From positions 310,001 to 374,000 of the forward strand of contig CM057130.1 of the NCBI GenBank assembly GCA_029964075.1: 64,000 nucleotides of DNA. The letters are read 5' to 3'. Positions 1 through 55,486 of the stretch are shown here, piece by piece. Numbering within the stretch: the stretch's first letter is position 1; every line of letters starts with the position of its first letter. Under the pieces are notes generated by a model. That model was not told the origin of the DNA and searched no databases. It was given only the letters and a program-made list of their open reading frames with translations. This DNA is from Patiria pectinifera (Eukaryota; Echinodermata; Asteroidea; Valvatida; Asterinidae). The position numbers and the translations under genes were made by a program.

Positions 1-3000
1 GAACTTTAAGCTCTCTGGCATTTTAGAGCAAATCTGGGGTCTTTATCTTAAGATTTGTCCTTGAAATTCAGAGGAGATCTTGTAGGTTATTAATATTTTT
101 AAAGAAAAAAATCAAAATTGTTAACTTAAAAAAATTAACATTTCACAACCTGTGTTTCATTGCTTATTCCTTCCTCCATGTTGGAATCATGTTCATTTGT
201 GCCTGGATTATTTTCATTGCGCCACCAAAATTATCAAGACTGGAATTAAAAATATATTTGAGGTCGGTGATTCCACTTTATACTTGACATACATCCATTC
301 CGCCTGGCTGGCCGAACATGGCGCCGTGCTCACGCTACTGCAGAAACAGAAATTCTCTTTCTCCTGCGATGTTTGTTTGGTAATATTTTTCTACATCATC
401 ATGCTGTATGATCATGCTGTATGTTAGCTAGCTGCTGGTGTGTGTGCATTTTGATCACACATGCATCGGAAAAACAGGATTCTGGTCAAGATTTTGATAT
501 TAGAAGCTATGTATTAAATTGTGTTGATTAAAATGGCGTGTATGATAAATATATTGTGCGTATCAGGGGCTAAAAATGTGATCGGCATTTCTTTTGTCGG
601 CGTATCGGGCAGATCATGCCGTTTATCGTGGGGAGAACCATGCGATCCGTCCGCCGGCCACAGGTGCCGATGCGATGCGTTTGTGCAAAAAAATAGTCGT
701 AGTTTGAGAGTTCAAGTTTTGAGATCGTCGTGATGATTAGCCCATTTAACACAGGTATGTTTGTGTAATCAAAATCAGCTTCAAAAAGTGGTGAATTTTT
801 TGTTTTTGTTTGTGGCAAATTATTAGTACTTGAAATGTGATTTGTCAATTATCAACCTTCAAAATGCAAAAATAAAAAAAAGTTTAGTCAATTCGGTGGA
901 AAAAAAAAAAGTCGGTCGGGTTACCGTAAACACACCATTTTTTTTGTTCGGCCTTACAATAAAATACCATATTGCCAGGGTACCATATGTCTGGCAAAAA
1001 CAACATTTTATTCCACGCCTGCAAAAGTGGCTCATTAAAATCATTCATAAATTAGCCAGCCAATTACTGCAATCTGATGCAGAACATATCCCCCAGGGCA
1101 ATAGCCTGGCCAAACCCAGCCTATTGCAAGCCAACATGGCACGTAATTTTGCCAACAGTCAGGGTACGTAGAGGGCTTTTCTCAGGCTAAGTAATTAGCA
1201 GACAACAAGGTGCAGATTTCATCATGTCTACAAGCCAAGGAGTTTACAGACACCTTTTGTCGGCTATCAGCCTTTCTATCAAAAGTCACCAGACTTGCTT
1301 GACATTCATATTGAAGGTTTCTTTTTTTTTGGGGGGGGGGGGGGGGGTGGTGATGGTGGTTTGACCTACATTAAATTTAATTTGTAAGAGAGTAGAAGGA
1401 TTAATTTAATTCAATCAGTTTGTAGTGTGGTCACATAAATTTGCTGCATGAAGTCATGCATACCAATACATACATTTGTGTACCCGTAGGAGGTACATGT
1501 ACATGTTCCGGTACACATAAAAAATTATATACAAGTCGTCAATTTCGATTATTTTTTTAATAAAACGATATTCAGATTGAAGCCATGGAACATGATTTGA
1601 GGAAATCTTCAGACACCCTGTTTGGCCTATTTACCGGTATTTACCTGTAAATGCATAAAACATCAACAACGTGGATGCCTTGCTCAATTCTAAGGCAAAT
1701 TTAGACTTACAATATATTCAAATATGAAATACCGGTACATAAATTTGCTTTCAAATTTTCATTAATTTAAATTTAACCATTGCTGGTTCTGCCAGTGGTA
1801 CATGTAACGGGTCTATCAGAAATTTGACAGACCAACATTATCAATAACTGGTGTTGGGCATTTACATGTAGAGTACACATATCTGCAATATATTGGTTTG
1901 TTACATGTACACTAATTAATTTACGAAATTAAAATATGAACAGTGCTTTACACATACATCTGTAAACACAAGTCTTAAGAATTCAGCTGAAGGCAAATAT
2001 CAACACTACATTGTACACTGTACTGGCATACCGGTATGCCTAAACTACAGGAAAAAATGAAGCCTTCACACACTTGCAATCCTCATACTGTCCCACAATG
2101 TTTTGACACATTTACTTTGTACGTGAAAAATTCTCCTGAAAAGCAAAATAAACAACCTAACCTCAGGAATTTAGTGCAGACCTACATGTACGTTTTACTA
2201 TTTCTCTCAACATCTACCTGGTACATGTCATGCATTCCTGTACATGCACCGGTAACATTTGGGACAAGCCAAGAAAGAAGTAACATTTCTTTGTTTGGTG
2301 TATAAAAGTTTTAAAATATAAGCATGATTATGCAAAAAACATTGTCACACAAAAGGTCCTCCATCAGTGAAAGCTGGAAGAAAGTTGAACACTACACTGT
2401 ACATTGAAGCTTTCATTGATTTATGATAATTGTGAGGGGCTCACTGAAGTTGTTTATTTGTGGACAATTAAGTTCTGATTCCTGTCATCTTTGGCTGGGC
2501 TGGCGTGTGCCATTGGCCTTCAAACCTTCTCTGAGTAGAGTGCAATACTTCAGGTTGAAGCACTTCTAAAGCAGGCAGTCATCTAATCAGGTTAATGGTG
2601 TAGGCGGAGTCTATACCGAATATGTCACCGTGATGTAAACATTTGGGGATGATTAATCAGTGCACCAGAGAGTCTTCTATCCAAGGCAAGTTGTCAAACA
2701 AGTACTGAATCGCAAACAAAATTCTCATCTCTTCAATTGAGGACTAAGCTGCAGGCAAAAACCAGCAGATGCTACATGTATGGTAACCGGTAACAGACAT
2801 CACCTTACCAAAATATGCTTCACTGTGCAGGAAACCAGTGGCACATGTTCTTTGTACCCTAATGTACATGTACCGGTACATGTACCGGTACTTGGCATTG
2901 ATCAAATCCCGGCCAATAATAGTGGTTGGATTCTATCTTCTTGTATGCTCTACAATCCTCCAAAATTTGATGAACCTGAGGTTACAGTAAATGCAGTGCC

Positions 3001-6000
3001 ACCAAAAAATTATATGGATCATTGTACCACAATTCGAGACAACTTGGTTTCAGATGTTGAAAATCTGATTTGTCACTTGTTTTTTTCCCCACAAGTTACC
3101 GGTAGGGCTGGGCAGGCGTAGCCTTGACTATTGGTCCATGGGCATTGACAATTGTACAAATCCTATTGATTGGATGGGTGTTACATGTAGTTTTCATTGA
3201 TCAATTCTCATTGATCAGTGGTTTCCCACTGAGTCAGCTTGGACGACTTCACAATGTGCCACGTACCACTACATGTGCCCGGTGCACGTATGGTGATCTG
3301 AGATTTGTAAGGTGGGCTGAAAATTCATACAATAAAAAAAAGATGAACGGAGTGAATGGAAATATTTCTATGTAATGCCCACACATGCAGCGCAGTACAA
3401 TGCATCAGAACTTCATTGTACCGGTATTATGTCAGATTGCAAGGGAGTTGCAAGGTTAAATACGGAGTAGGCTACTTGTGCATGTGCAATAGTGCTATAA
3501 ATTTGCATTCTTCACGTCACAAACACAATAAATTCTTATACTTGCATTAAAAGTGCCCTCGTATGCAAGTCTTAACCCTAACCCTCTATGGTGTGTGAAA
3601 AATGGTATTAACTTTAGAGGATTCATGACTATTGCTTTGAGAAGGGTGTGTCCGTATCATCCCTGTAATTATAAAGGTCAATGCAAACCAAATTTTTGGG
3701 TGCAGAAAAAAATGGACCACTGCCAGGTTTGTCTAGCCAAATCTGATGCAGTCTATCGGGTCTACAGAGCAGATTAACCCCCAAATCTTTCCTGGCTTCC
3801 TCCTGCACCCCTTACTTCCTTTCCCCAAACATTTCATGTTTTAAATAGTAGTTTCCAGGATGGGGCTGTACCGTCTTGAAGATATTGACTTTACTCAGTC
3901 TCATCCTGTCTGGCTCCATACGACATTAAACCTCTGACAAAGGTAAAGTTACCTCCTTGGGCATATTTGCTGGGAAATTTCCTGCATCACTTCAAATCCT
4001 GCACTGCACAGGAAACCAATGGGGCATTCTTTGTACTTGAGAAGTTTCAAGGGAATGGAGGCTCAATTTGTAAATCCTGCAAATTCTCCAAACCGCCCTG
4101 CAGCACTAGCTATGGTTTAATTGATTTATGGTGAAGTAATGTATACAATGTCATACAATTTAATACAAACTGTGCTAATATGTTAGTGAACTATTGGGGA
4201 AAGACTATCTCACCAAAAACAATAATTTAATCAAAGGGTAAACATGTTCTGGTATGCACTGTAATAATGGTATTCACTCTTGAAAAGACCTCAAAGGTCT
4301 GTGCCTGACTGTCACTTAGTGTCAGTGCATGTTCAATTTCAATGAAATGAAGTTCTGATTTGGTGATCCTTTTCCCAATTCCTTTTTTTTAGGAAAATAG
4401 ACTGTGCACAGTTGTTTTCTGAGTAATTTGTTTTTCAATCTGAAATATATTTTTTCCTTTTACAATTTCAATCTGCAGCTTGCAGTCATTGTGGAAATCT
4501 TTCAAAATACAAATTTAATGTACTTCCTACAGTCGATTATATACGTACATGTACATGTACCAGGGACATTGAATCATATCAATCAGGCAACGCTGCCAAA
4601 ACACTAACCATCAATTTTCATTTCAATGACAACAACTGGACAGTTTGCGGACAAAAATAGCAACAGGAACTGTCATGACGAGCGCCGTTATGAATGCCAA
4701 GTATTTTTAATAACCATAACACATAATCACACATGCCACATGCTTTTGTTGAGGTAGAAACTGCCATATTTTATTCTTCAATTTGTTGCAAGGCTGTGCT
4801 TCTACCGACTCCTATTAAAATATACACAGTACACAGTGCTCGCACTACCCTCATCCACATGCACGTTACGTACATGTACATACACTGTAGATGTAGTACA
4901 CTGCAGACAAAGACTGCAAAATTTCTCCTTATAACAATTTTATCAGAATATTCATACATGTATATCGTCTGAAAAGACTTAAGACTTGCCATACGGCAAC
5001 TTTTTTTACTGCTGAGACCAAAAAATCAATATTTTGCACGAGGATACTTGTACCGGTACTTAATGGGTTATCAGATTTTAATTTTTAAAGGGGTGCACTT
5101 CATGAAACAAAAACACTGTAATTGATCCTGAAGTTGTTTCTGAAATCACTACAGTAATTTTTCATAATTTTTACAAGCCTTCACTTTTTGTCATTGTTTT
5201 GTAATCATGATGACGAAGTCACCCTACTTGTATCTTTTGCCACTTTAATCAAAACAATAGCAAATCATCTTTGACAACCACAACACTTTGGCAGGCAATT
5301 ACTTTGGGGTCTTCTTTCGCTTCTTTGATTCCAAGGGATACCGTATCGTCGCGTAATCGGATATGGAGTGGCCTAATGGTATCGCTACCGGGGTGTTTGA
5401 TCTAAGGAGGGGCGAGGTGATATTAAGAGTAATGGGAGGAGGAGGGGAGGCAGATTGGAGGCAAGATTGGAGCAGCAAGGAGCAGTAACTGTGTGCGATG
5501 CTGGCTTAACAATGCTTCCATGTTGTTGCCCTGAGCAAAATGGGACTCATGGGCATACTGGGTAATGGGCTGCAATCAAAAACGTGTGGATTTCGCAGGC
5601 TGATGGATGCTGCTTGTGCAATGATTACCACGGTCTGTGATCTATGGGAACATACGGAGGATATTGAATGTCACCAATTTGGGAATACAGACATTCGGGC
5701 CTATAGTTTGAATGATTACATACACACTGTCCCCGTACATACCGGTATTAGTACATGTACCGGTACATGATGGTCCTTGTAGTCTTTGGGACTGACTAAA
5801 ATTCATTCAAATTCAAGTGTTCCATTCAAACTAAAACCGCATCACCAACAAAATGACAAAAAAAAATGTCCATTTTGAAACTTTATACAAACATGTTAAT
5901 GTACCGGTAAATCCCCTGCCTGTTCCCCTGCATCCCAAACTACATAACATACTGGTACTGTACCAGTACCCTGTGCCCAGGAGCCAGAGGCGATTGACCA

Positions 6001-8010
6001 GTCCAAGCATCTGTTTAATCCCTCTATGGTCCAAGTCAGGATCAAGCAAGCCTCATAATCTGATAAAGCTACAGTGTACTTAAAATCTATCTTGATGGTT
6101 TCAAGTGTTCATGGACACTGAACACTATACAGCTTGTAACCCTAATCCAGCTGAATAGGATGTCATAGTCCAAAACAATTGGGCCAAGTAGCCAATCAAA
6201 CCTTGGCATATAGCCAGGAAAGTTTTTTTCTGGAACAATACATGTACAGTATCTGGAAATTGTTAACAGTTTAAAATCAAAACAGGAACACATGTGTGTG
6301 TATTTATTCAATGGGCAGAATGCAAGGCGAGCAAAAGTAGGAGAAACTCTGTGACATACTGGTACACATACCATACTGGTACACATACCATACAGGTACA
6401 TCACACATACTTTTTTTAGTACCGGTACATGTATGGTACCGTACATGTACTGTACAGTAAGCATTTTGCAGTACAAGCTAGAAGTAAGACTGATGCAGTG
6501 AGTACATGAACAACCACACAACCCAAGGAAAAAAATGACCAAATGCTCTACCGGTAGTTCTGCCTTTAGAGTTCTGCCTCATATAGCCTACCGGTACATG
6601 TAAGCCCCCTACACATTAAAAAAAAATGTAAAGTGTTGTCATGTCTACCATGTTAACCTTCCACCCCTGTGACAGTATGCAGATTACGGGATTGAGCTAT
6701 TGTAATGAATTAATAATGAACCTACATGTGCATACTGTACAACCAGTTTTTTTCAATTTATGATACAGTGTTGTTTTTCAGTAAATGTGCATCTGTCTCA
6801 TGTTCACTTACCGGTACATTGTGGAGGTACCGGAACCTGTTTCAACATGTAAGGAGCACAACTAGTAATGGACTATTTTTACATGTACATGTATGACAAA
6901 AAATATGCTTTTGTGTGTTTTGTTGTTCGTGTTTATAAAGAATTACTGATCGGTGACGAACTGCGTTCACTGTGGTGTGCCAAAGTGTGCACTATTCGAA
7001 AGTCAGTATGAACACAGCAATCACAGGCAGTCATACCAGTATATATGTACATGAACTCAATGATTCAGAATAACCTTTGGCCATCGAATCAATCTGTAGT
7101 TTCAACCAGACAGGTACATGTACATGACTATATACACAGGTACAGTACAAAAGTACACTTGTATACTGTACGGTACGTGTACAGAAATCAGGCATTTGTG
7201 TATCATGATACATTAGGCACTGATTTACAATTTGCTTGTGGCATTCCTCAAAAGATAAACCAAGACACAACTCCACATGTCATTTTTTTAAAACTGCTAA
7301 AAGACTGACTTTGGTCATTTAAACACCAGCTTACACCTTCAACTTTAAATATAACAATGGTCATACAGGGATAATTGGGTGGACTGTATACATTTTGTGG
7401 ATGTTTTGTCGGCTACCAGTGCAAATCGAAGGGAGTGGGACCCGTTGGACGTTTGAAGTAAAATGTTTGTTCCCAGATGACTTGAAAGCAAAACTTCCCT
7501 CCACAACACAGACCATGTAGTATAGTTTTCAACATGTATGTGATTTAAAGCCCCGCAAAAAAGTCCCTTTCAGAGTATTGAGCTATGAAGAAAATGGAAT
7601 AAAATTGACAGAAACTGATTAAAAAAATTTCTCTCTCTTCATTCAGTTGTTGTTTTAAAACATCTCCAACCGTACAGGCATATTTGCCAGGTCTCCCACC
7701 TTTCAGCTGCTGAAAATAACCTCTAAATCTGGCTGCATCAAAAATATATCATGTGTCAAACATGTTAATTTTGAACGTCATTATTGACATAATTTTGATC
7801 AGTGAAATCTGAGAACATTGACAGAAAGTGCACGATGTTCGACATATTCGAGAATCCTGAGGCGTGTTTAGGGGGTCTTACCCCCTCCCCTTGTGTGGCA
7901 AATAGGAGACTCATGCAGAAAACACAAAATGAAGTACCTTGGCAACAATGAGGATGCAATCAGGTACTATTATGCAACATCACAAATGTAAACCATACTG
8001 AACGCCTTAC
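1..8010. other. Gene-poor stretch rich in ATGTAC / CCGGTA palindromic words
   Basis: I found no supported coding exon here on either strand. Open frames are short and low in coding character. The stretch has a G homopolymer (about 1330-1347), a CpG-rich patch (about 570-740) and unusually frequent palindromic words built from TACATGTA and TACCGGTA, especially 1500-6900. If the exon at 8011-9868 is correctly oriented, its next exon should be on the minus strand here or further left. I looked for the conserved pre-PDZ sequence and did not find it. Confidence 0.6.
560..754 (+). promoter_or_regulatory. CpG-rich patch, possible promoter-proximal first exon
   Basis: An otherwise AT-rich area contains a cluster of CpGs (for example gtcggcgtatcgggc, gatccgtccgccggcc, gatgcgatgcg) followed by a consensus splice donor acacag|gtatgt at 754/755. 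An ATG with good context (aaaATGGCG) at about 532 opens 67 codons, but they end at tga before the donor. This may be an unmethylated promoter with a non-coding first exon of a plus-strand transcript, or only a CpG-rich relic. Confidence 0.2.
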
Positions 8011-8195
8011 CTGTTCTGCAATTTCCTCAGCTGTCTCTTGATCCTCATCTTCATCTTCTTGTGCCGAGTCAATAATCTCAATGAAAGCAGACCTTCCCCT
8101 GCCACTGATTATATTCCGAGCCTCCTGACTCAACTGCAGCTCAAGTTCTTTGGTATCCATCTCCTGCTCCTCCATCTCTGGCTCTGAGTCCTCAT

Positions 8196-8226
<31 letters not shown>

Positions 8227-9868
8227 ATTGGTTATCGCCGTCTCTTTGGTCTGCATGGCAATCTCCAATTTATCCAAGACCTTGCTCCTGATTTCCTCAT
8301 TCTGAGGACTCTGCTCAGTGGTTGCATAGTGGGATGCGGTCAGGCCTGGTTCATCCACATGGCCTGTTGGTGAATGGAATGTTGGGGAAGCATCTCTGAA
8401 AGTCTGGTGGCTTGCCTTGACCTGGGATTCCCCTGTAAGGGGGCCTCTACCAGGGGCATCAGTCCGAGTTGACACGATGCTCGAATCCCACGTGGGGCTC
8501 GCTTCGGTCTCCTCAGCTTTTGCAGCCGACACAGTGATCTCACGCTCTTCAACAGTGGTATCAGAGGCAGAAGCCTGAGTGCTGTACTCAGAAGACATCT
8601 CTTCGCTATCCTCATCTTCATATTCTCGGGAGTAGCGACGAATGCCTGCTCGGAGTTTGTGAGAGGGACCAGCCGAACGCAACACTACAGGCTTCTTGGC
8701 TATAGGAGAAGTTGGAGAGACAGGAGACTTCCTATTCTCAATGTAGGCTCCTCCTTCAATATCAAGACCAAGTTTCTCACGTAAATTGATGTCAGGCTGG
8801 TTCAAGGTTATAAGGGTGGATGCAGAAACAGCCATCTTGGTCTTGGGGGCCTGAACATGATGAATATCTGTGGGACTTGTTTCCCTCCGGACAAAAGGCA
8901 CAGGATCATCCAGGCTTCTTCGTTTCTTCTCCTCTTCAGGTGACCGTGATCGCATACGAGCGCGACGCATAGCAGCTGGTTCCCTGAGATCTTCAGAGGG
9001 CCTCGCCATTCCTCCATTCTCTATGCTGATGCCTTGAAGTGGTTTCATCGATTTTGGTGACGTTGGAGGCGAAGGTTTGGTCCTTTCTGCAGGTTGCGGT
9101 TTGTGAACTGGATCTGTGCTGCCTGACTGGATTGGAGAGTAAAAATCCTGGACTACTTTAGAAATGGGGCCAGCGTTGCGCGTGCTAGTACTATCCGATA
9201 CCTTGGCATCAAAACGGCGTGATGGTTTCTCTGGAACATCAACTGGAGATGGCCGTCCGGAAAGAGTTCTCTTCGGAGATTCATTCTCGCCAGAGCTACA
9301 AGTACCTGTGCTATCTGTGGAAGTATTCCTGCTGTAGCGTTTCTTGTTGACATGAGGACTAGTTGGCGGGCTCAGAGGCTGCTTAGCTGTAGTGGAGGTG
9401 CTCTTCCTTGCTGTAGGTGGACTTGTAGCTCGATTGGTGGCTTCAAAGAGCATCCTTGCATTCTTAAAACGCAACCTGGGATCACCTTTATTGTCTGACA
9501 CCTGATCCTCATATTGGTCCTCGTTGTGCTGCTCATGTGCTAATACATTCAGGTTGAACTCCTGGCTGGATGGACGTTGTCTACTGGAATGCTGTGTAGT
9601 TGTTGTAGATTGCTGAGGTGGAAGGGCCACGCCGTTTGCTGTGTTGATCTTGGACCTGTGCGGGGGTTTGACATCTTGGGCTGGGGCTTCAAACAGGTGG
9701 CGTAACTTACTGACTTTGGCACCTGGAGTGGTAGTGACATGCATCTCCCTGGCAACGGAAGATCTCTTCTCAGGGTTGACACTGCCAGTGGTGACCCCAC
9801 TACCGGCGCTGCCACTGATTCTGGTTGACATGGTGGCTGACATCTCTATCTCATCATTCCCAAGGGCT
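8011..9868 (-). CDS. Large N-terminal coding exon, probable neurabin/spinophilin (PPP1R9-type) disordered region
   Basis: This is a single large exon: the minus strand reads a pyrimidine-rich tract ending ttgcacag just above 9868 (acceptor) and gcagaacag|gtaagg at 8011 (donor). From the first ATG at 9843 there are 611 uninterrupted codons ending in phase 0. The protein is disordered, with many SP/TP sites, a basic RRARMRSRSP stretch, a poly-Glu run near residue 540 and a second acidic tail near 595-608. Short motifs KVSKLRHLFE (about 43-52), RLRFKNARMLFE (about 123-134) and SRRFDAKVS (about 208-216) resemble, from memory, the actin-binding N-terminal half of vertebrate neurabin. There the acidic tail directly precedes the PP1-docking segment. 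No KIxF docking motif is present here. The frame stays open above the ATG to the acceptor, so translation may begin in an upstream exon. The family call is inferred; the coding status is firm. It lies on the strand opposite to the PDZ exons. Confidence 0.7.
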
Positions 9869-10764
9869 CTGTGCAAGAACAACGCGATAAAAGAAGATGA
9901 CAGTAAATCAGTAACATCAAAATATCAAGTCAAAAGAGTCCAACAATTATTATTTCGGAAGACATTACAGTTTTTTCCCTGAGCACTGTTAGGTTACATG
10001 TTAATGTACAAGTACATGTGCTCTGGAACTGAACCAATTTGATTCCTTACATATTTGTATATATCCCCTGTGCACTACATGTACTTCTACGTGTACACGA
10101 TAATTGCTTTTTAAAAAGTCCAGTCAACTGTGACAATAACTGATGAAACCAACACACTTTGTTAGGAACGCCTTATGCCGCACAAAACATTTGAACTGAG
10201 ATTCAGTGTAGACCAAAGAATGACTGAAAAGAAAAATACACGTACATGTACATGTACATGTGTGAGTCTTGATCAACTCACAACCCACATAGTGTTCAAC
10301 ATGCATAATATGGGAAAACCCAGACTGACATACATGCAGTTGGAACCGACATAGAAATCGGTTTGATTATGCACAGAAATTCTTTTGAAATGTTAGACAT
10401 GGCGCCAAGTGCTTGGTAAACACACATTGGGTGCAGGATAAATAGTGCCACACACAAATCATTTTATATTCAGCATCATTACCAAACAAAAATGCCCAAT
10501 ATACACAGACACATGTAGTTATGTGCATACCTAGATGAGTTTGTCCTGGTACAGTGTATAGGATAAACAAGTCAGGTGTGTTTACAAACACAAATGCCCC
10601 GCAACTGTGACTGTTCCCATGACATAACACCACTCTTTTAACATCAACTTACAAGTACTGTACCTTGGTCACATGGAACGTTCATTGACAGCATTAGTGT
10701 CTTCTGTAGGTTTTATATGAATTAATCCCTAATCCCTATGATCTCAGAATAAATACAAGATTTG

Positions 10765-11527
10765 TATTGTTTTAGCCACTGTGACCTTGACCCTTGACCT
10801 TTCGACCCCCAATGCGATAGGCCTATTTGGATTACCAAGAATGATCTACAAACCAAATTTGAAGTTCACATGTGAGGAATTTCTCAAGTTATCGCGCTGA
10901 CAAAATTTCTTTTGTTTTAGTCACTGTGACCTTGACCCTTGACATTAAATGCAAAAGGATTGTTAGGATTACCAAGAACAATACACAAACCAAATTTGAA
11001 GTTCATATGTAAAGTATTTCTCAAGTTATCACGCTGACAAAATTTCTTTTGTTTTAGTCACTGTGACCTTGACCCTTGACCTTTCGGCCCCAAATGCAAA
11101 AGGATTGTTAGGATTACCAAGAACAATACACAAACCAAATTTGAAGTTCATATGTTAAGTATTTCTCAAGTTATCGCGCTGACAAAATTTCTTTTGTTTT
11201 AGTCACTGTGACCTTGACCCTTGACCTTTCGGTCCCAAATGCAAAAGGGTTGTTAGGATTACCAAGAACAATACACAAACCAAATTTGAAGTTCATATGT
11301 AAAGTATTTCTGACAAAATTTCTTTTGTTTTAGTCACTGTGACCTTGACCCTTGACCTTGCAAAAGGGTTGTTAGGATTACCAAGAACAATACACAAACC
11401 AAATTTGAAGTTCATATGTTAAGTATTTCTGACAAGATTTGTCCGGACACACACACACACCCACACACCCACCCACGGAAGGACAAGGCGGAAACAGTAT
11501 GCCCCTTCGGCTTCGCCGCGGGGCATA
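10765..11527 (+). mobile_element. Pearl/Helitron-like non-autonomous element with five core repeats and a terminal hairpin
   Basis: About five tandem copies (129-145 bp apart, at roughly 10778, 10922, 11059, 11204 and 11333) share cactgtgaccttgaccctt, 'ttgttaggattaccaagaac' and 'caaaccaaatttgaagttca'. They are followed by an ACAC/CCCAC simple repeat, ggaaggacaaggcgg, and a hairpin at 11501-11524 (gccccttcggc / gccgcggggc). This order (core repeats, microsatellite, GC hairpin with 'atgcccc...ggggcat') is that of pearl/CvA-type non-autonomous elements of marine invertebrates, which resemble Helitron ends. The first core copy is the most diverged and the fourth to fifth interval has a deletion. 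No transposase or helicase gene is present. The left boundary is approximate. Confidence 0.7.
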
Positions 11528-12626
11528 AAAAAAGAACACACACTTGGTTGTTCCTTTGTTTTTGCAGTGGGGTAGCCTACATACTGTACTTTCTGTTTGT
11601 GAACATAAATTTATCTACTAGAAAAGTACAATGCACTTGTACCCTTGAAAACTCTCTTTCATTTGCATGTAAGTCATTGTTTAGCAAAGGTTGTGTCAAC
11701 GGAAACATCTTTTGAGTTCTGTGCGTACAGTATGAACAAAACAATGATGATTTACTTAATCAAGTGTTTTGTCAGGTTATTTATTTTTTAATAGAAATTG
11801 AGGACATTTAGTTCTATTCTAAAGTTTATTCCAGTGTCATGCATACAGTGTAATTACATGTATGTTCTTTTTGTTGAAGAAAAAGTGTTGTATAAAATGC
11901 CTTCAAGATAGTGATGCACTATGTGTCACTAGTATAAAGGACAAGGGTGGATAGGAATTGGATCAATCTTTTCAAATGATATCCGCTTTACACCTCAATT
12001 TCTCCAAAGAACTGTTGACTTCCTTTCTGTACAGTACATGCCACGTGACAACATTTTACAACTTGGTAAAGTCAATTTTTCAAAAAATGCTGTCAGTCAA
12101 AGGAAGGACTGACATGAACTTGCATGCTGTTACATATTCATAGCTGTGCATTTATGTCCAATACACCCAAACACGAAATCATCTCTTCCATTACATAAAC
12201 CTCTGTATCCTCAATGTGCATGAATTCATTCAATTCTGGTTTACCCAATAACAAGTACCACGAAATCCAAATTCCAATTCCATTGACAACGCTGTGTAAA
12301 TTGTGTGCAGGTTAAATGCCAGCTGTTATCCATGAGGAACACGTCATTTCAACAGCAGTCAAAATGTGGTCTAGTGACCACACAACACATTGTGACCAAA
12401 CCCATAGTGCAATGATTGGAATTCTTTGGGTTCCAGAACACAATGAGATTTCACCTTATGTGACCTTGGATTTCCCCTGCAGGTTTCTGCGCTGTTGAAG
12501 ACATATGTACATGTACTACATTTGCAATCATTTCTTTGACTGAAAAACTTGACTTTTGAAACGGCCTTCAAAACATTTGTGTGCACAAACAAACTGTATG
12601 TTTATAAGATTTGAAGATATGATAGC

Positions 12627-12717
12627 AATAAGATAAAGGTTTATGGTAGCACCATGTGACAAATCACTATCTCTAGAGATGTGGCACATGGTGCTTCCTT
12701 AAACCGTTATCTTATAA
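12627..12717. mobile_element. Short hairpin (inverted-repeat) element
   Basis: Two arms of about 35 bp are nearly complementary: the left arm has ataagataaaggtttatgg then agcaccatgtg; the right arm has cacatggtgcttccttaaac then cgttatcttat. About 30 of 35 positions pair around a small loop containing ctatctctagagat. It contains no open frame. It looks like a small foldback/MITE copy; a precursor hairpin of a small RNA is a less likely alternative. Confidence 0.55.
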
Positions 12718-14446
12718 GTATATTGTATATATTTATTTACTACAATGTACCGGTACCTTTATCCAGGGTAACCAAAACAGTTTTTAACTGATTTCCATTG
12801 GGACATTGCATACATTACAACAAATTCAATGAAGTTAACCAAAATGCATTTGACAAGGACACTGTTCATTGATGAAACAGACTACGAAGTGCGAACAATA
12901 TTACTTATAAATACGTCAGACGTATGTTACCAGTACATGTCTTACACTTGAAATAAACCTATTTTACATTATTTCATTTTCAAGCACAAGACATAAATTG
13001 CTGATAACGGGTTGGGCGAAAACCATGCAAAAAAAAATTGGGGGGGAAAAATGGGGAAATTCTGGATCCGGCTACAAATTACTGTGGTAACCAAGGTAGA
13101 ACTCCCTAAATCAGTGCATTCAGAAATTTCTCATCAGAATATGACACAAAAAAGTTTGAACATCCAATCTATTGCTGACATGAGTGCAAATACTAGAAAA
13201 AAACTGTGTTTATACTGGTACTTCCTTTAAAACTTCATACAAGTTATTGCCATAGGAAAACAAACATCATTCTAATGCATTGCAGGACCCTATCCCAATA
13301 CTAAGTGCCTCAGAAAAAATCTCAAGATCCATACGGTACAGGTACATGTATTATGCAGGCATAACAATTTCATGATTAAATTAAATCCTTGCTGATGGCT
13401 GCACCCCATTAAAATTCCCAATCAATAATTCTGTAAATTATTTCAGTCAATGAACAATTTATCAGAGAAAAAGTCACTTCATTGGATATGCTACCCTATG
13501 AGTGCATTACACAAGTGGGATGCATCACAATGATGTCACATACACAACGTGAGTCACATCAGAATAAGCAGTGCATAGCAATACCAAGTATTAAATCACT
13601 ACAGTAGTGAAACTGCATACTTTTTCATTACATATATTTACACCATTATTGTAACACTGATCCTACAATATGTAAACAAAACTGAGCTGTAAAAGCCAAT
13701 AGCAGTTAACAATAAACCACAATAGTAGAACAGTTCCGCTTAGCTGTTTCCTGTAATAAATAAGGGGATAAATTTCAGACCAGTGATGAATGATTGGCTT
13801 CAACTTACATGTACATGTATTTCTGTCATTCTCTTGATATACATACATGTATGTACTAAGTTCCAATGGACAGATAGGATTGACGCTCCATTCATACAGT
13901 GGATACACTGACCGTCCCTTCCTACCGTGCATGTGCATTACATAAAAGCAAACATTATAATCTGGCTTTAAAGGGACACTGCATCCTGGAATGCGCCCAA
14001 TTGGGCTACCAAACACATTTTAAATGAAACAATGTTAATTGGAACTTTGCATTTAGAGGTACCGGTAGGATATAAACGTCCACACAACCATCCTTAAAGA
14101 GACATTTGACAATAAATTTTGTTCTTGCATTTATTTTTTAACACACGAACAAATATTGTTAAAAATACATTGTTCACATTCCTTTACAAAACGTCCCCCT
14201 GGTCTGCCCTACAAAGCGGGTCTGGCCACCTACATGTACCGTATCTCTTGAGGAGGGTGATGCAAAGCCTTGTTATATGTAAATTTCTAATTTATGATGC
14301 GCAAACAATACATGTGCTTCATTCTGCAACATATTCACAAACCATCTGGGGAACTTAGAATGGCAAGTACAAAGTTGATGGATTACATGGATATCAAACT
14401 CATCATGTTTAATTTTTTCTTCAAGAATACAGTCCCGGTGCCACGA

Positions 14447-15500
14447 GACTCAATCGTAGAACAACATTGGATAGAGGCGCTGAGGTGAAGAGGCAAGATC
14501 ACAGACTCAATTGTAGAACAACATTGGAAGCATAGAGGCACTGAGGTGAAGAGGCAAGATCACAGACTCAATCATAGAACAACATTGGAAGCATAGAGGC
14601 GCTGAGGTGAAGAGGCAAGATCACAGACTCAATCATAGAACAACATTGGAAGCATAGAGGCACTGAGGTGAAGAGGCAAGATCACAGACTCAATCATAGA
14701 ACAACATTGGAAGCATAGAGGCACTGAGGTGAAGAGGCAAGATCACAGACTCAATCATAGAACAACATTGGAAGCACAGAGGCGCTGAGGTGAAGAGGCA
14801 AGATCACAGACTCAATCATAGAACAACATTGGAAGCACAGAGGCGCTGAGGTGAAGAGGCAAGATCACAGACTCAATCATAGAACAACATTGGAAGCATA
14901 GAGGCACTGAGGTGAAGAGGCAAGATCACAGACTCAATCATAGAACAACATTGGAAGCACAGAGGCGCTGAGGTGAAGAGGCAAGATCACAGACTCAATC
15001 ATAGAACAACATTGCAAGCATACATTTTGAGGCGCCGAGGTAAAGAGGCAAGATCACAGACTCAATCGTAGAACAACATTGGAAGCACAGAGGCGCTGAG
15101 GTGAAGAGGCAAGATCACAGACTCAATCATAGAACAACATTGGAAGCACAGAGGCGCTGAGGTGAAGAGGCAAGATCACAGACTAAATCATAGAACAACA
15201 TTGGAAGCACAGAGGCGCTGAGGTGAAGAGGCAAGATCACAGACTCAATCATAGAACAACATTGGAAGCATAGAGGCGCTGAGGTGAAGAGGCAAGATCA
15301 CAGACTCAATCGTAGAACAACATTGGAAGCATAGAGGCGCTGAGGTGAAGAGGCAAGATCACAGACTCAATCATAGAACAACATTGGAAGCACAGAGGCA
15401 CTGAGGTGAAGAGGCAAGATCACAGACTCAATCATAGAACAACATTGGAAGCATAGAGGCACTGAGGTGAAGAGGCAAGATCACAGACTCAATCATAGAA
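14447..15500 (+). repeat. 61-bp tandem satellite array (about 17 copies, truncated by the gap)
   Basis: The unit contains actcaatcatagaacaacat, ggaagcatagaggcgctgag and gtgaagaggcaagatcacag, and recurs with a constant 61-bp period. Copies differ at a few sites: cat/cgt/ttg before 'agaac', gcata/gcaca, ggcgctg/ggcactg. The first copy lacks 4 bp. One copy near 15010-15040 has an insertion (tacattttg) with other changes. The array runs into the N gap, so its true length is unknown. Since 61 is not a multiple of 3, it does not encode a repeat protein. Confidence 0.95.
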
Positions 15501-16000
15501 NNNNNNNNNNNNNNNNNNNNNNNNNNNNNNNNNNNNNNNNNNNNNNNNNNNNNNNNNNNNNNNNNNNNNNNNNNNNNNNNNNNNNNNNNNNNNNNNNNNN
15601 NNNNNNNNNNNNNNNNNNNNNNNNNNNNNNNNNNNNNNNNNNNNNNNNNNNNNNNNNNNNNNNNNNNNNNNNNNNNNNNNNNNNNNNNNNNNNNNNNNNN
15701 NNNNNNNNNNNNNNNNNNNNNNNNNNNNNNNNNNNNNNNNNNNNNNNNNNNNNNNNNNNNNNNNNNNNNNNNNNNNNNNNNNNNNNNNNNNNNNNNNNNN
15801 NNNNNNNNNNNNNNNNNNNNNNNNNNNNNNNNNNNNNNNNNNNNNNNNNNNNNNNNNNNNNNNNNNNNNNNNNNNNNNNNNNNNNNNNNNNNNNNNNNNN
15901 NNNNNNNNNNNNNNNNNNNNNNNNNNNNNNNNNNNNNNNNNNNNNNNNNNNNNNNNNNNNNNNNNNNNNNNNNNNNNNNNNNNNNNNNNNNNNNNNNNNN
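15501..16000. other. Assembly gap (500 N)
   Basis: There are exactly 500 consecutive N, a round number typical of a placeholder rather than a measured size. The left edge is satellite and the right edge is unique sequence with no satellite unit. Order and orientation across it are therefore the least certain join in the window. Confidence 0.99.
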
Positions 16001-16083
16001 TGATGCAGAGATGAGGGAAATCTCTAAGAAGCAGAGTTATGAAGCTTTCTCTTATACCGTATAAAAATCACTATTCATTTCAG

Positions 16084-16131
16084 GCCGGCTCTGACAAATT
16101 GAACTCTCGCCACCCTGCCAAAGAGTTTGAG
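16084..16131 (+). other. Possible 48-nt micro-exon
   Basis: Sixteen open codons (AGSDKLNSRHPAKEFE) lie between attcatttcag and gag|gtactg, in phase 0 at both ends, just right of the assembly gap. The phase-0 start would accept the donor at 8011 if the left contig were turned around, but its phase-0 end does not fit the exon at 19867. It could be a small alternative exon of the neurabin gene or a chance arrangement. Confidence 0.18.
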
Positions 16132-19100
16132 GTACTGTTTGTATCTCCAAGCTCGTTAGAAGCTTCAATCTATGCAAATTGACCAGACATCACTTGTATT
16201 ATTCATCCAATTTAAGCTTTGTCGGTTTCAAGTTGCATTCTACGTGCTGTTTTTCGAGTTTCATCAAAAAAACAAAACAGATTCCTTTTTGAAATTGTTT
16301 TTTTTTTCTAGCATTACTGAAGTTATTCACTTTTGAATGAGACATCAACTGAACAAAAATCAGCCCACGTTTAGTTATGCTGGAATTCAGTGACCAGAAT
16401 TAGAAGGTTTTTACTGCGGTGGTGTCACGCTCACGCGCATGCTGCACGCGTTCTTAAAGACGAGGCGCACGCGCATTTTTGTATTCCTGTTGGTCGAAAG
16501 AGCCCGGAGTGCGTGTGTTCTACCGAGTAGACTCATGCGAGCCTCGCGGCCCAATAATAATTCCATCTCCCAAGATAGGCTGGTTCCTGCCCCACACTCA
16601 GTATCAATAATATGCGTCTCTGTTTGTGCCCAAAATGAAAAAGAAAATCCCGAGGGTTGTAGATTCCTCCCCCCCCCCCCCAAAAAAAGAAGAAATAAGT
16701 TTGTTTTGAGGGGGAAGGGGGTGGAATAAAACATACAAGAAACAAACAATTGAATTTGTTGAAGAGCACAGGGAGTGCAAGTTGAATAATGAAGTCCCAG
16801 TAGGAGATTTCTAGAGTAAACATGTTTTGAAGACTTACTTTAAGAGGCTTGGGCTATTGCATTTTGATTTACTAAACTACATGAAGCTGTCCCCTAAGGA
16901 CTGTTGAGAGTTGGGCATCCATAAATTCGGTATTCATTCTGGAGGAAATTGCATGGAATTGGAAACTAAACTTAAGGCTTTTGTTTGAAACATTCAGAAA
17001 ACCAATTTTGATCTTGTTGGCGTAGCTGTTTTCATGAATGTCAACTGGGGATTTATTTGTTGCATTACTTATTTGTTGAAATATGTAAATATCCAGACCT
17101 GTGTGAGATTACATAGCTCCGTCTTATCCAGGCCAGTATGGGATTACGTAGCTCCGTCTGTGTGTTTCATAAGAGTCTGTCTTGGAGGGATTTCTTGAAA
17201 TGTGAAAAGATTTGCAACAATTGTGGCTAATTTGATACACGCTGGAGGAAATTCCAGTCCGATCTGGAAACATACGTAACTCTTGTTTGTGTGTTTTTAA
17301 ACGAGTCTCACTTCTTGAATTTGCAGCATTTCTATCAATATGTTAGCTCATGACAGACTGAATGTAGTTTAATATCGCAATTGTAAAGCAAAGGTTTTTG
17401 TATTTATTGCTGAAATGTAGAATGTAATTAGCTCTGTTAATCACATTTTGCAGAGGAAAACTAAAATTGTATCCCTTTAAAAATATATAATTGTTTTCAT
17501 TACTCATAGAAGCCAATCTTAAATGCAAATTTCTGAGAAGTTTGCTTGAATAGTTTCATTTTTTAAATATGACTCTCCTGCCTATTTTCATCAGGCCAAA
17601 TATGTCCATGTTTCAAACTCTGAAATCTTACTCCCTCAGCTGCAACAACTTGATACAATCCTGTCATCTGATACAATGTTATTAAAAGATTGACCGGCGT
17701 CCGTCTCATTCTAGAATCAGCGCCTTAACTCCCCCTCAAATCTTGGTCAGATGTACGTACGTAAACAATTGTAGCATCCACAAAACCCAGCAAACTGGAA
17801 TGTCCGACCGGAGGCCGGAATTTTTGGTTGACGATTATAGTGTCCAGGCCGGATCAGTTCCTGGTGGAATTGGGATCTTGGACAGGACGGGAGAAGTTCA
17901 AGTTTGTGTTTAGGATTCGGCAGATCAATGACCGAGACTTAATACCGTGCTTAATCCAATTTACATTTTGCAAATGATGAGGATTTCTCTGGCGGATGTG
18001 TTTGTGCTGCTCCCCGCAGGGCTTAGGGGGAGGGTGATCAGTTGTCCAGTCAAGATGCTCGTTATCGCTGCAGTTGCTGACCAAACCTGGCAGGCGTTTT
18101 TCAAAGAGATCTTTTTAACATGTGCCCAAGGGGTTTTCCTGGTATTAAGAAGCCCATTATTATGAAACATTATTATCGGATTATGTAGAGAGTGTTGGAA
18201 TTATTACAGTCACTTCAGAAATCCTGAGTCTTGTCGTACACGATGTTGAATTCCCCTTGTCACATAGACTCTGATCAGCCAATGAGGGAGATCATCTGTT
18301 TCTAATCAAGCATCGCCTTGATGTTAATTGGTTATCAAAATTTCAAGAGGGGTCAGTCAGAAGTGTGTATTAGCACTCTCCATCGTCACGCAGTTGCATA
18401 GTGCTGGCTAACGAGTAGTTCACAAATTTGTGATTTGCATAGAGTTTTATCTTATTGTGTTAGTCTGAGCGGTCGTGCAACTCTTCCTCAGATCACCTGA
18501 TATCCTCAGTTTTTACTTTCCATGTGTGCCATTAAAAGTGAAGAAAAAAAAGTCTGTAGAAAATCTTGTATTTCCTCGTTCTGTGTGACTTCCCTTTTGC
18601 ATGCATTTTTGAAATCCAATCTGAGGTAAATAGAAATTAATCTTAGTTGGAGGTACAACCACCATCTTTGTTGTTTTTCTAGACCATTCTCCGTGAAGTA
18701 ATTAGTAGCAACATAGGGTCACATGATTGTTTGAGGGCATTTTGGGTGGTTTAAATCAACCCTGGTGCTCTACAGATCATGGCAGTTTGCGAGGCACTTG
18801 GCACAATTTGGATTAAACTCTGGGTTCAAGGGTTCAATTCAACCATAGAGCTAGGCCACTATACCTGCCATGGCCCGTCATGGAGGGGCTAAGTATGCCA
18901 CCAGGCCAGTGCGTGCCCAATCAACCAGCGTTTTCATTCCAAGTCATTGCCAGAAACATTTGGATTCAGGCAAAAGATTTACCAATGCACAGGCAGTATA
19001 ATATTGCAGAAATGAAGGGTTTATTTATATCTGTGGACATTGTTGACCAAATTGACAAATGTCAGTATTGAATGGATGCCTTGGGGTTGGCTCAAATGAT

Positions 19101-19866
19101 ATCCAGGAAACTAGGACAGTGTGGACTTTTGGTCTCCCGGTGACATATTTATAGCACTTGAAAATGGAATCATTTCAAGTGATTGGATCTCATAAAATGA
19201 GTTTAAGAGATTTTTTTTTTTTTTCAATATTTTGATGAAGTTTAACATTCACTCACTTCATTTTAAGGACTTAGCATGTACATATATGTGGTTGAAAATG
19301 TTGACAACTCCTATTTATTTCCAAAAGTTGTTTTAAACTTTCAGAGTAGTTTCACATGTACATGTACGATTCGTGGTTGGCATAAACGTCTTATTATTAT
19401 ACCTACCAGTGTCGTATTATTTTACGATAGTTGGCATTTTGAAGAAGCACTTTAAAACAACCTGTTCCTGTTCCAGTCAGCTGCAAACATTAAACAGCAC
19501 TGGTTAGAACATTGAAATCTAGGAAACACCAAAAACAGCCTAGTATAACCATGGAACTAGGCTTCGCCTCGCCCACGCCACTTCACCACCTGGGGTGATT
19601 CATAGGTGGCGCTCGGCTTTGGATCAACTGGTAAACGATCAACTCATGAACACACACACATATTTGGCAGCTTTCACACTTTATAGTACAGGAGGCTCAT
19701 TAAAATAAAAGCCAATTAGGTAGCCCAGTTTCCACAAAGCTTTTTGAACCAGTTACGCATTAAACGGTCTGCACAAATACCTGAGGGCTTTGAAAAGACG
19801 AACATTGTGTATTAGAGATAAGAACACCCCGTCAACACTAAATGGTTTGGCCATGTTTAATTGCAG
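16132..19866. other. Non-coding stretch upstream of the first PDZ exon
   Basis: I see no convincing exon here. The area contains a CpG-rich patch (about 16415-16560, with tcacgctcacgcgcatgctg), a C run followed by A (about 16670-16690), a poly-T tract (about 19209-19224) and ordinary AT-rich DNA. The conserved pre-PDZ exon of neurabin (PP1-docking motif and ELEKRVE segment) would be expected here but was not detected on either strand. Confidence 0.5.
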
Positions 19867-19987
19867 GTGATGACGGCTTGGGCCTCAGCATTATCGGCAT
19901 GGGGGTGGGCGCTGACGCAGGACTGGAGAAGCTTGGTATCTTCATCAAGACAATCACTGAGAACGGTGCTGCTCATAGAGATGGAAG
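19867..19987 (+). CDS. Neurabin/spinophilin PDZ exon 1 of 3 (first half of PDZ)
   Basis: The exon lies between attgcag and gtaggt, and carries 39 whole codons flanked by two partial ones (2 nt at each end). It encodes the start of a PDZ domain, with the carboxylate-binding loop as GLGLSIIG followed by [20 protein letters not shown]. This [19 protein letters not shown] signature is characteristic of neurabin (PPP1R9A) and spinophilin (PPP1R9B). These proteins tether protein phosphatase 1 to actin-rich sites such as dendritic spines and cell junctions. The residues just before (LEKRVE...FPVEL type, with the PP1-docking motif further upstream) must come from an exon not found here. The incoming phase (one base supplied by the previous exon) does not match the phase-0 donor at 8011, so at least one exon is missing between them. 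Confidence 0.95.
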
Positions 19988-24872: not shown

Positions 24873-24977
24873 GATCAGTGTGAATGATCAGATTATTGAG
24901 GTGGATGGGAAGAGCCTTGTAGGAGTTAGTCAGAAGTATGCTGCCGGTGTCTTAAAGAACACTAGTGGGCTAGTCAG
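24873..24977 (+). CDS. Neurabin/spinophilin PDZ exon 2 of 3
   Basis: The exon is bordered by ttgcctgcag and gtaagag, with 34 whole codons plus split codons. The AG left by the previous exon plus the first G gives Arg, so the reading frame continues exactly. It encodes [20 protein letters not shown] and the following AAGVLKNT helix, the central strands and alpha-B helix of the PDZ domain. It matches the neurabin family pattern xVNDxIxEVDGxSLVGVxQ. It ends with an Arg codon split AG|A across a 28.5 kb intron to the exon at 53454. A degenerate minisatellite begins just after the donor. Confidence 0.96.
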
Positions 24978-43130: not shown

Positions 43131-44457
43131 GTTTATTTTATTGTACAGAAAGATTTATTTGCAAAGCATTCAACATTAATTAATGCAGCACTTTACGTGA
43201 ATGTTTGCATCAATATATTTTTCAATGAGATCTCTCACTTGTGATTGGTCATTATTTTATGAATTTCTGGTGTCTAACAGTTGTTGCCTGCTAAGTGGCC
43301 AAATGATGATGATGATGATAATGACCTCTGTCATTTATTTCAGTTTGTTTCCTGGACTTACATTTTTGGAGTCTGTGGTTCACTTTTGATATTTCCTTGT
43401 TCATTACTATTTTTCTAAATAAAAAGGTTTACAACCAATGAGTCTACAGAATCTCGATAAAAGCTCACTATAGACCACAGCGTACTTGTTTACAGATTTA
43501 AATATTGAGGAAAAAAGCTGTCTTGATGCTGCATATGTACCAGTATATTACTTTAAATATGCTTGAGTTTGAAAATGTACATGTATTACAACAGTAGTTT
43601 GAAAACTACTATTTTGAGGAAAACATGGAAAAAACAATTGGCTCATCGGCAACTGACAGGCATGATGTCACAAGGGACTATATCTCGAAGCATGTGCACC
43701 GTCATTCCTTTGTAATTTCTCCAGCTTTTAGTTTGGGTCACCTAAACTGTGATCATTTTCTCTTTCTTAGCTTCGTTTTTCTATCCCTTCTTTGTATAGC
43801 CCTCACCTTGAGTGGCCCTTAAATAGTACCTTGCGATTTGCAACTCTCATACCAAACACAAGAATTACCACCATCAAAAACAAACATGAATGCTATGCAG
43901 TGTGTATCCCCGTCCCCCAAGGGTCTGACAGAAATATGACCTTGAAAGAATGATGCTCAGACATCCCAAGTATCCGTCTCCCGGACCGCATCCAAGATTT
44001 CCCGCATCCAAGACTTCCGGCCCACATAGAGAACCAAAACCGCAGACCAATCCAAAGATCCCCCCAACCTCCCTCCACTGACTCCCTATGTATTCCTCCG
44101 TGTCAATTGATTGATATCAAGCAGTCAAGGTGAGCTAGATTACTACCAAGATTAGCGGCCGGATCTTCATACTTAAACCATCAACTAACACCGCGTCTTG
44201 ACAAATGGGGATGCTTGCTGATTGACAAAATTTGTAGGGAGAATTTTGTTTCTACCTTCCACCCCCAACCCTAAGATGCCAGGAGTGATGTACATGTACA
44301 TGTAGGAGATTGTCACGCTCATCTGTACCGGTGCTTACTTGTGCAAACCTTGGTTTAACTTTTCCCACCAGCTTGACTGGCTGTGACCAGAGATAAATGG
44401 GATACTATCACAGAAATTACAACACAAAAAGTGCTTTGATATATTTTAATTACCACC

Positions 44458-44699
44458 ATCATCAGACAGCGTCGCCTTCGGCAAACCGGTCACGTTTATC
44501 GACATAATGAGCCAGCTAGTCAAGTCCTCCTCCCGAATCCTGATGCCCCTCGACGAAAAGGTCGTCCCAACATGACCCTGAAAACATCCATGGAGCTAGA
44601 AACTGGTCTGAGCGGTCCATCTCTTTCCAACACTATGCTCGACAGGGACAGTTGGGCCCAACTCATCAAGTCATCATGAAAATGAATGAATGAAGAAGA
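44458..44699 (+). pseudogene. 3' end of a LINE ORF2 (truncated non-LTR retrotransposon)
   Basis: A frame open from about 44458 to a stop at 44677-44679 encodes RQRRLRQTGHVYRHNEPASQ, then APRRKGRPNMTLKTSMELET and a tail with DRDSWAQLIKSS. RRLRxxGHVxR...RxRGRPxxxxK...DRDxW is the typical C-terminal tail of reverse-transcriptase ORFs of several non-LTR clades. Upstream RT sequence is missing, so this is a 5'-truncated copy. A (gaatga)-like tail follows the stop. Confidence 0.65.
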
Positions 44700-53453: not shown

Positions 53454-53640
53454 ATTCTTAATCGGTCGGGAGAAAGACAGCGAGAACAGTGAAGTGGCTC
53501 AGCTCATCTCCCAATCTCTACAGAACGACAAAAACATGAGGGAAACCACTCCGGTAGAAAGCCCTCCCGAGTCAATGGTATGGCCCTATAACTACAACAG
53601 CTATAGCCCCTCCTCTCTCTTCAGGAGAGCCAATGGCTTT
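53454..53640 (+). CDS. Neurabin/spinophilin PDZ exon 3 of 3 plus post-PDZ linker
   Basis: The exon starts after ctccatcttacag, and its first A completes the Arg codon from the exon at 24873-24977. It ends at TTT|gtgagt in phase 0, with 62 whole codons. FLIGREKD is the last PDZ strand (FxIGRE in vertebrate neurabins), and SEVAQLISQSLQ is the conserved helix that follows the domain in this family. After that the sequence diverges into a Pro/Ser/Tyr-rich linker (PVESPPESMVWPYNYNSYSP). The long upstream intron makes this exon the natural acceptor for any internal alternative first exon (see 35942-36084). Confidence 0.95.
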
Positions 53641-55234: not shown

Positions 55235-55486
55235 CCCTCACCAGATGATGACGACATGAAGCTGGACACCCTCAACGAATCCTCAGAAGGTGACGAGGAT
55301 AGCCGATTGGTCATCGACACGTTTGATCTGGACGAAAGCCTTAGCAGTGATTCAGCCAGCAAGCCCACATCACCGTCCTCCGACCAGGCACCAGATCATG
55401 CACTGGCTGATATGAGGGTCAAACTGAAGGAGGCACAGTACAAAAACGCTGTGGCTGAGGCTGAGATTGCCAAGCTGAAAATACAG
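55235..55486 (+). CDS. Neurabin/spinophilin acidic linker and start of coiled coil
   Basis: The exon is bordered by ctttccccatccag and cag|gtagga, with 84 codons in phase 0 at both ends. The N-terminal part is acidic and Ser-rich (PSPDDDDMKLDTL, SSEGDEDSRLVIDTFDLDE), like the acidic segment between PDZ and coiled coil in vertebrate neurabins, where an IEVFELxE motif occupies the place of VIDTFDLDE. The C-terminal 30 residues (ALADMRVKLKEAQYKNAVAE and AEIAKLKIQ) match the conserved opening of the family coiled coil (KLxxKxKELQIKHAVTEAEI type). SP sites suggest possible phosphorylation. Confidence 0.94.

Follow-up and report, generated by a model that had tools for sequence, protein, structure and literature searches.

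The neurabin/spinophilin gene of Patiria pectinifera is split over two strands of one chromosome, an arrangement that is most likely a scaffolding artefact rather than biology. We analysed a window of 64,000 bp (C2:310001-374000, where C2 is contig CM057130.1 of a 613.5 Mb genome in 1,020 contigs) together with two unplaced contigs that lie off this chromosome, C797 and C798, the latter of which was read over 10,000 of its 75,000 bases. The predicted exons indicate a single gene that was very probably fragmented by Hi-C scaffolding, with a true order of A(+)/C797(+)/B inverted/C798(+)/D(+), where A is C2 up to 300000, B is C2:300501-325500 and D is C2 from 326001. This reading draws on piece lengths, gap sizes, the register of a satellite, the positions, strands and phases of the exons (Table 1) and the single genomic place of each of exons 1-6. 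The locus itself is biologically ordinary: one normal animal gene, neurabin.

Table 1. Features of the neurabin locus, in window positions unless a contig is named (window position 1 is C2:310001)
Feature	Position	Strand	Details
Piece B, right-hand part	1-15500		remainder lies left of the window and carries exon 2
Neurabin exon 1, N-terminal coding	8011-9868	minus	open frame and splice sites; single genome location
61-bp satellite	14446-15500		17.3 copies, severed at the end of B; continues on C797
Scaffolding gap	15501-16000 (C2:325501-326000)		exactly 500 N; sole N run in the window
Neurabin exon 2	C2:302777-302875 (B, left of the window)	minus	99 bp, phases 0/0
Neurabin exon 3	C798:61506-61638	plus	133 bp, phases 0/1; 44 residues
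Neurabin exon 4, opening portion of PDZ domain	19867-19987	plus	acceptor phase 1
Neurabin exon 5, remaining PDZ core	24873-24977	plus	in frame
Neurabin exon 6, PDZ end and linker	53454-53577	plus	in frame
Neurabin exon 7, linker and coiled-coil start	55235-55486	plus	in frame; probe E 0.038, weak alone
Neurabin exon 8, coiled coil	63794-64011	plus	in frame; probe E 2e-8

The original prediction had placed an N-terminal neurabin exon on the minus strand at 8011-9868, PDZ, linker and coiled-coil exons starting at 19867 on the plus strand, and a satellite with a gap of exactly 500 N between the two groups. All of these features were recovered: exon 1 has an open frame bounded by splice sites, the plus-strand group gave PDB matches and in-frame exons 4-8, and the satellite runs directly up to the gap. 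The reading frame of exon 1 starts at an ATG at 9843 and extends for 611 codons, with the acceptor CACAG before 9868 and the phase-0 donor GTAAGG after 8011. Exon 8 ends 11 bases beyond the window, at C2:374011.

Neurabin and spinophilin (PPP1R9A/B; Spn in the fly) share a common order of a PP1-binding segment with KLTF, then a PDZ domain, then a coiled coil, and nothing in the portion read here, exons 1-8, is unusual in comparison with this family. When the PDZ domain was compared with the PDB, using a query with a small joining error, the best matches were neurabin/spinophilin chains (E 8e-35 to 2e-29). The eight best sequences were neurabin, spinophilin or LP20995p, which we take to be the fly spinophilin orthologue, and the next PDZ family was Canoe/Afadin (from E 2e-13). 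The protein spliced from exons 2-6, a query free of this error, aligned with neurabin-1 (9gsu_C) over 147 residues, interrupted early on by a single gap of one residue (E 1e-64), and the spliced protein aligned with 3hvq_C without gaps. A predicted RVxF-type PP1-binding stretch, RKLTFSKAPIR/VYATW, aligned to both chains. On the spliced protein, Pfam profile PF17817 scored 88.1 bits (cut-off 23.6), compared with 16.8 bits for exon 2 alone, which is below the cut-off, and 62.7 bits for exon 3 alone; exon 2 accounts for profile positions 6-39 and exon 3 for 40-71, with no overlap and no residue lost between them. Exons 7 and 8 matched a spinophilin probe and continue the frame, consistent with the C-terminal coiled coil of the family. 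The family also has an N-terminal F-actin-binding region; exon 1 had no Pfam match at E values up to 1. To our knowledge, a SAM domain occurs within this family in neurabin-1 only.

As assembled, the PP1-binding segment, which lies N-terminal to the PDZ domain in the family, is absent between exon 1 and exon 4. Splicing of exon 1 straight to the PDZ exon was ruled out, because the donor at 8011 is in phase 0 and the acceptor at 19867 needs phase 1. Exon 4 requires one base of the preceding exon, and exon 3 supplies that base from C798. Exon 2, whose translation is RHIAELSALSDTDDEDVIHRKKRKLTFSKAPIR, is positioned downstream of exon 1 in the direction of the gene. It was first picked up with a PP1 probe as a weak tblastn match (E 1.1) that ranked beside chance matches of similar score, and it was accepted because its splice sites, its phases and its fit with exon 3 support this match. 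The same probe was searched against C797, B, C2:326001-394000 and C2:200001-300000 and, chance matches aside, yielded nothing but the exon 2 motif on B, while all matches from a motif scan for missing exons were judged to be chance. In the restored order, the introns would measure about 15.1 kb (exons 1-2), 63.8 kb (2-3) and 17.2 kb (3-4), as calculated from the exon coordinates on the assumption that no further piece is missing. The proposal that inverting the left contig would put all exons in one order was therefore right about the inverted piece and wrong about inversion being sufficient, given the phases of 0 and 1. Similarly, an assembly error had been correctly located at the gap, but its extent is greater, since exon 3 on C798 and the 25-kb C797 were also removed, and what had been taken for a contig is a 25,000-bp cut piece.

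A second 500-N gap is found outside the window at C2:300001-300500; the region C2:200001-394000 contains just these two N runs, each of 500 N. The gaps at C2:300001-300500 and 325501-326000 therefore delimit a left-hand piece, B, of exactly 25,000 bp, and the two unplaced contigs have lengths of 25,000 bp (C797) and 75,000 bp (C798). C23 is also a 25,000-bp piece, and the distance from C2:1 to the end of A is 12 x 25,000 bp, where A is putatively one piece. Of 39 further unplaced contigs that were sampled, 19 (10/19 + 9/20) are whole multiples of 25,000 bp in length, or 16 of 34 without the five (C794-C796, C799 and C800) that were picked for their proximity to C797 and C798, and four more of the 39 have lengths divisible by 1,000.

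3D-DNA inserts 500-N gaps and edits assemblies with a coarse step of 25 kb and a fine step of 1 kb. A literature search found no publication on the gap and editor defaults of this program among the papers listed; from the gap size and editing step, we infer that 3D-DNA was used here. An input contig, from which all five pieces would derive, was very probably chopped on a 25,000-bp grid, whereupon the scaffolder very probably dropped C797 (25,000 bp) and C798 (75,000 bp) among the unplaced pieces and reinserted B back to front, flanked by 500-N gaps. Small inversions and debris are both known from Hi-C scaffolding of the 3D-DNA type and both fit the present case, which differs from the usual error in that one gene was struck three times, with one piece inverted and two removed. 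According to the accessible part of its description, the published P. pectinifera assembly was built with NextDenovo, 3D-DNA v180419 and manual curation that removed ambiguous fragments, and comprises 615 Mb in 22 pseudochromosomes and 1,458 small scaffolds (PMC10511450). Small inversion errors are ascribed to a weakness of existing Hi-C methods in the available portion of one article (PMC6719893), and an excerpt from another describes debris as surplus sequence relocated to the genome end, whose status as a real error it calls debatable (PMC11514472).

The two removed pieces fit the locus through the register of the satellite and through the order and phases of sarcoglycan and neurabin exons. 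Apart from B, the 61-bp satellite was detected at a single site, the terminal 535 bases of C797; this two-site count is not a census, because the search skips very common words. When C797 is set against the satellite end of B, the two parts form a single array of 26.0 copies in which the unit spacing across the cut is exactly 61 bp, like 23 of the 25 spacings overall (the others are 67 and 60). Of 61 shifts tried, shift 0 alone was consensus-like (0.967, next 0.770). This continuity, by which the satellite runs in register into C797, also bears on whether neurabin was disrupted in this individual by a genuine inversion, fixed or polymorphic, of about 25 kb. Such an event is very improbable, as both ends of the piece are 500-N gaps at an exact 25,000-bp spacing and exon 3 lies off the chromosome entirely, even though P. 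pectinifera has a heterozygosity of 5.16% in the accessible text of the assembly paper (PMC10511450) and an inversion heterozygote could therefore mislead Hi-C ordering.

The join between A and C797 is bridged by a predicted sarcoglycan alpha/epsilon gene on the minus strand of C797 (4754-13787), with matches at 13.7k, 7.6k, 5.8k and 4.9k (PF05510, E 4e-9). A cytoplasmic exon of this gene lies at C2:298809-298982 on the minus strand of A, about 1 kb from its end, and was weak at discovery (tblastn E 0.075). The exon matches on C797 and A were each found once among the candidates scored, and the donor of the transmembrane exon on C797 and the acceptor of the cytoplasmic exon on A were judged by eye to be phase-compatible. 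The joined protein aligns with alpha-sarcoglycan (9c3c_a) beyond the A/C797 join, where the query is about nine residues shorter. In a comparison of five sarcoglycan readings with Pfam, one reached the cut-off (PF05510) and another matched PF20989 below the cut-off, while PF05510 was the only match of the joined protein. With four exon matches on C797 and one on C2, the predicted sarcoglycan gene, like neurabin, was severed during scaffolding. Over 200 bp, the AT skew is 0.51 at the end of A and 0.45 at the start of C797, compared with 0.11 at the present left end of B. Values of at least 0.45 occurred in 9 of 1090 windows, and this likeness is minor support for the join because the next window was equally high in only one of seven cases. 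Elsewhere in A, C2:289207-290923 is a long simple array in which several frames stay open, for up to 539 codons, and which was judged to be non-genic.

For the joins B/C798 and C798/D, the supporting evidence is how neurabin exons 2, 3 and 4 succeed one another in order, strand and phase: an exon on the minus strand of B with phases 0/0 is followed by a plus-strand exon on C798 with phases 0/1 and a plus-strand exon on D that starts from phase 1. This chain suggests that the three pieces adjoin with nothing else missing. A comparison of the cut ends for shared repeats found no sequence feature crossing B/C798 or C798/D, and returned, besides the satellite, one 22-bp match shared by D and the end of C798, which was judged to be chance. 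It is unlikely that the restored order is right and an extra piece is nevertheless missing at B/C798 or C798/D: the lack of a feature spanning either join, and a possible short exon close to the left end of D that the order leaves unplaced, would accommodate one, but the phases of exons 2, 3 and 4 match at their junctions, no stretch is lost where the protein is aligned with neurabin-1, and the pieces are whole grid units. The possible exon, just right of the gap on the plus strand (16085-16132), is 48 bp long and in phase 0, reads AGSDKLNSRHPAKEFE and has plausible flanking splice signals; it could be an alternative exon or chance.

The genome-wide searches score the best candidates only, so that each single count applies among the candidates scored. 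A genome profile search with PF17817 gave one match, exon 3 on C798 (three candidates scored). The spliced 790-residue protein from exons 1-6 gave ten matches from 27 candidates across the 613.5 Mb genome; six of these were exons 1-6 themselves, at one location each on C2 and C798, and the other four, on C1, C3 and C8, were 29-45% identical in the PDZ part. A pair of neurabin paralogues facing opposite ways, both partly seen, had been offered as an alternative to an assembly error, and would explain why the exons lie on different strands at a distance of 10 kb. The single location of each of exons 1-6 and the one PF17817 match argue against such a pair, as do the complementary exon sets and their compatible phases, which leaves it with hardly any credibility. 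The window's own PDZ domain was absent from the 70 matches of a genome search with PF00595, a search that is uninformative on paralogues because the PDZ exons of the window are split. A stretch of C1 with PDZ matches is present twice, about 250 kb apart and in opposite orientation (8294601-8295800 and 8297001-8298500, versus 8550651-8552150 and 8553401-8554600), with identities of 93.6% (1501 bp) and 86.4% (804 bp). This repeated stretch is either an uncollapsed haplotype placed inverted or a genuine inverted duplication.

In the restored order, sarcoglycan (minus) and neurabin (plus) are head to head. A sarcoglycan alpha/epsilon gene and a single neurabin gene probably formed a linked head-to-head pair that predates the vertebrate duplications, perhaps held together by shared regulation. 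In human, SGCE and PPP1R9A are presumably head to head on 7q21, and SGCA and PPP1R9B presumably neighbours on 17q21. SGCE and PPP1R9A share one imprinted cluster on 7q21, as stated in the available part of a published account (PMC3820666). A literature search, judged by title and the start of the abstract, found no publication on the sarcoglycan/neurabin pair among the papers listed.

The value of this case lies in its warning about this assembly. Automatic annotation would probably report a neurabin that lacks its PP1-binding part and, on the chromosome, probably only the tail exon of sarcoglycan. As 19 of the 39 sampled unplaced contigs fall on the 25-kb grid, other genes may be similarly cut and have lost exons, and wherever this genome appears to show a lost gene, a split gene or a small inversion, the unplaced contigs of grid length should be consulted first.

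Two minor features were observed around the neurabin exons. A 145-bp tandem array of 4.9 copies is located 5' of exon 1 (10755-11430), and a short open frame on the plus strand of a neurabin intron (44440-44679) was judged by eye to resemble a fragment of a reverse-transcriptase element.
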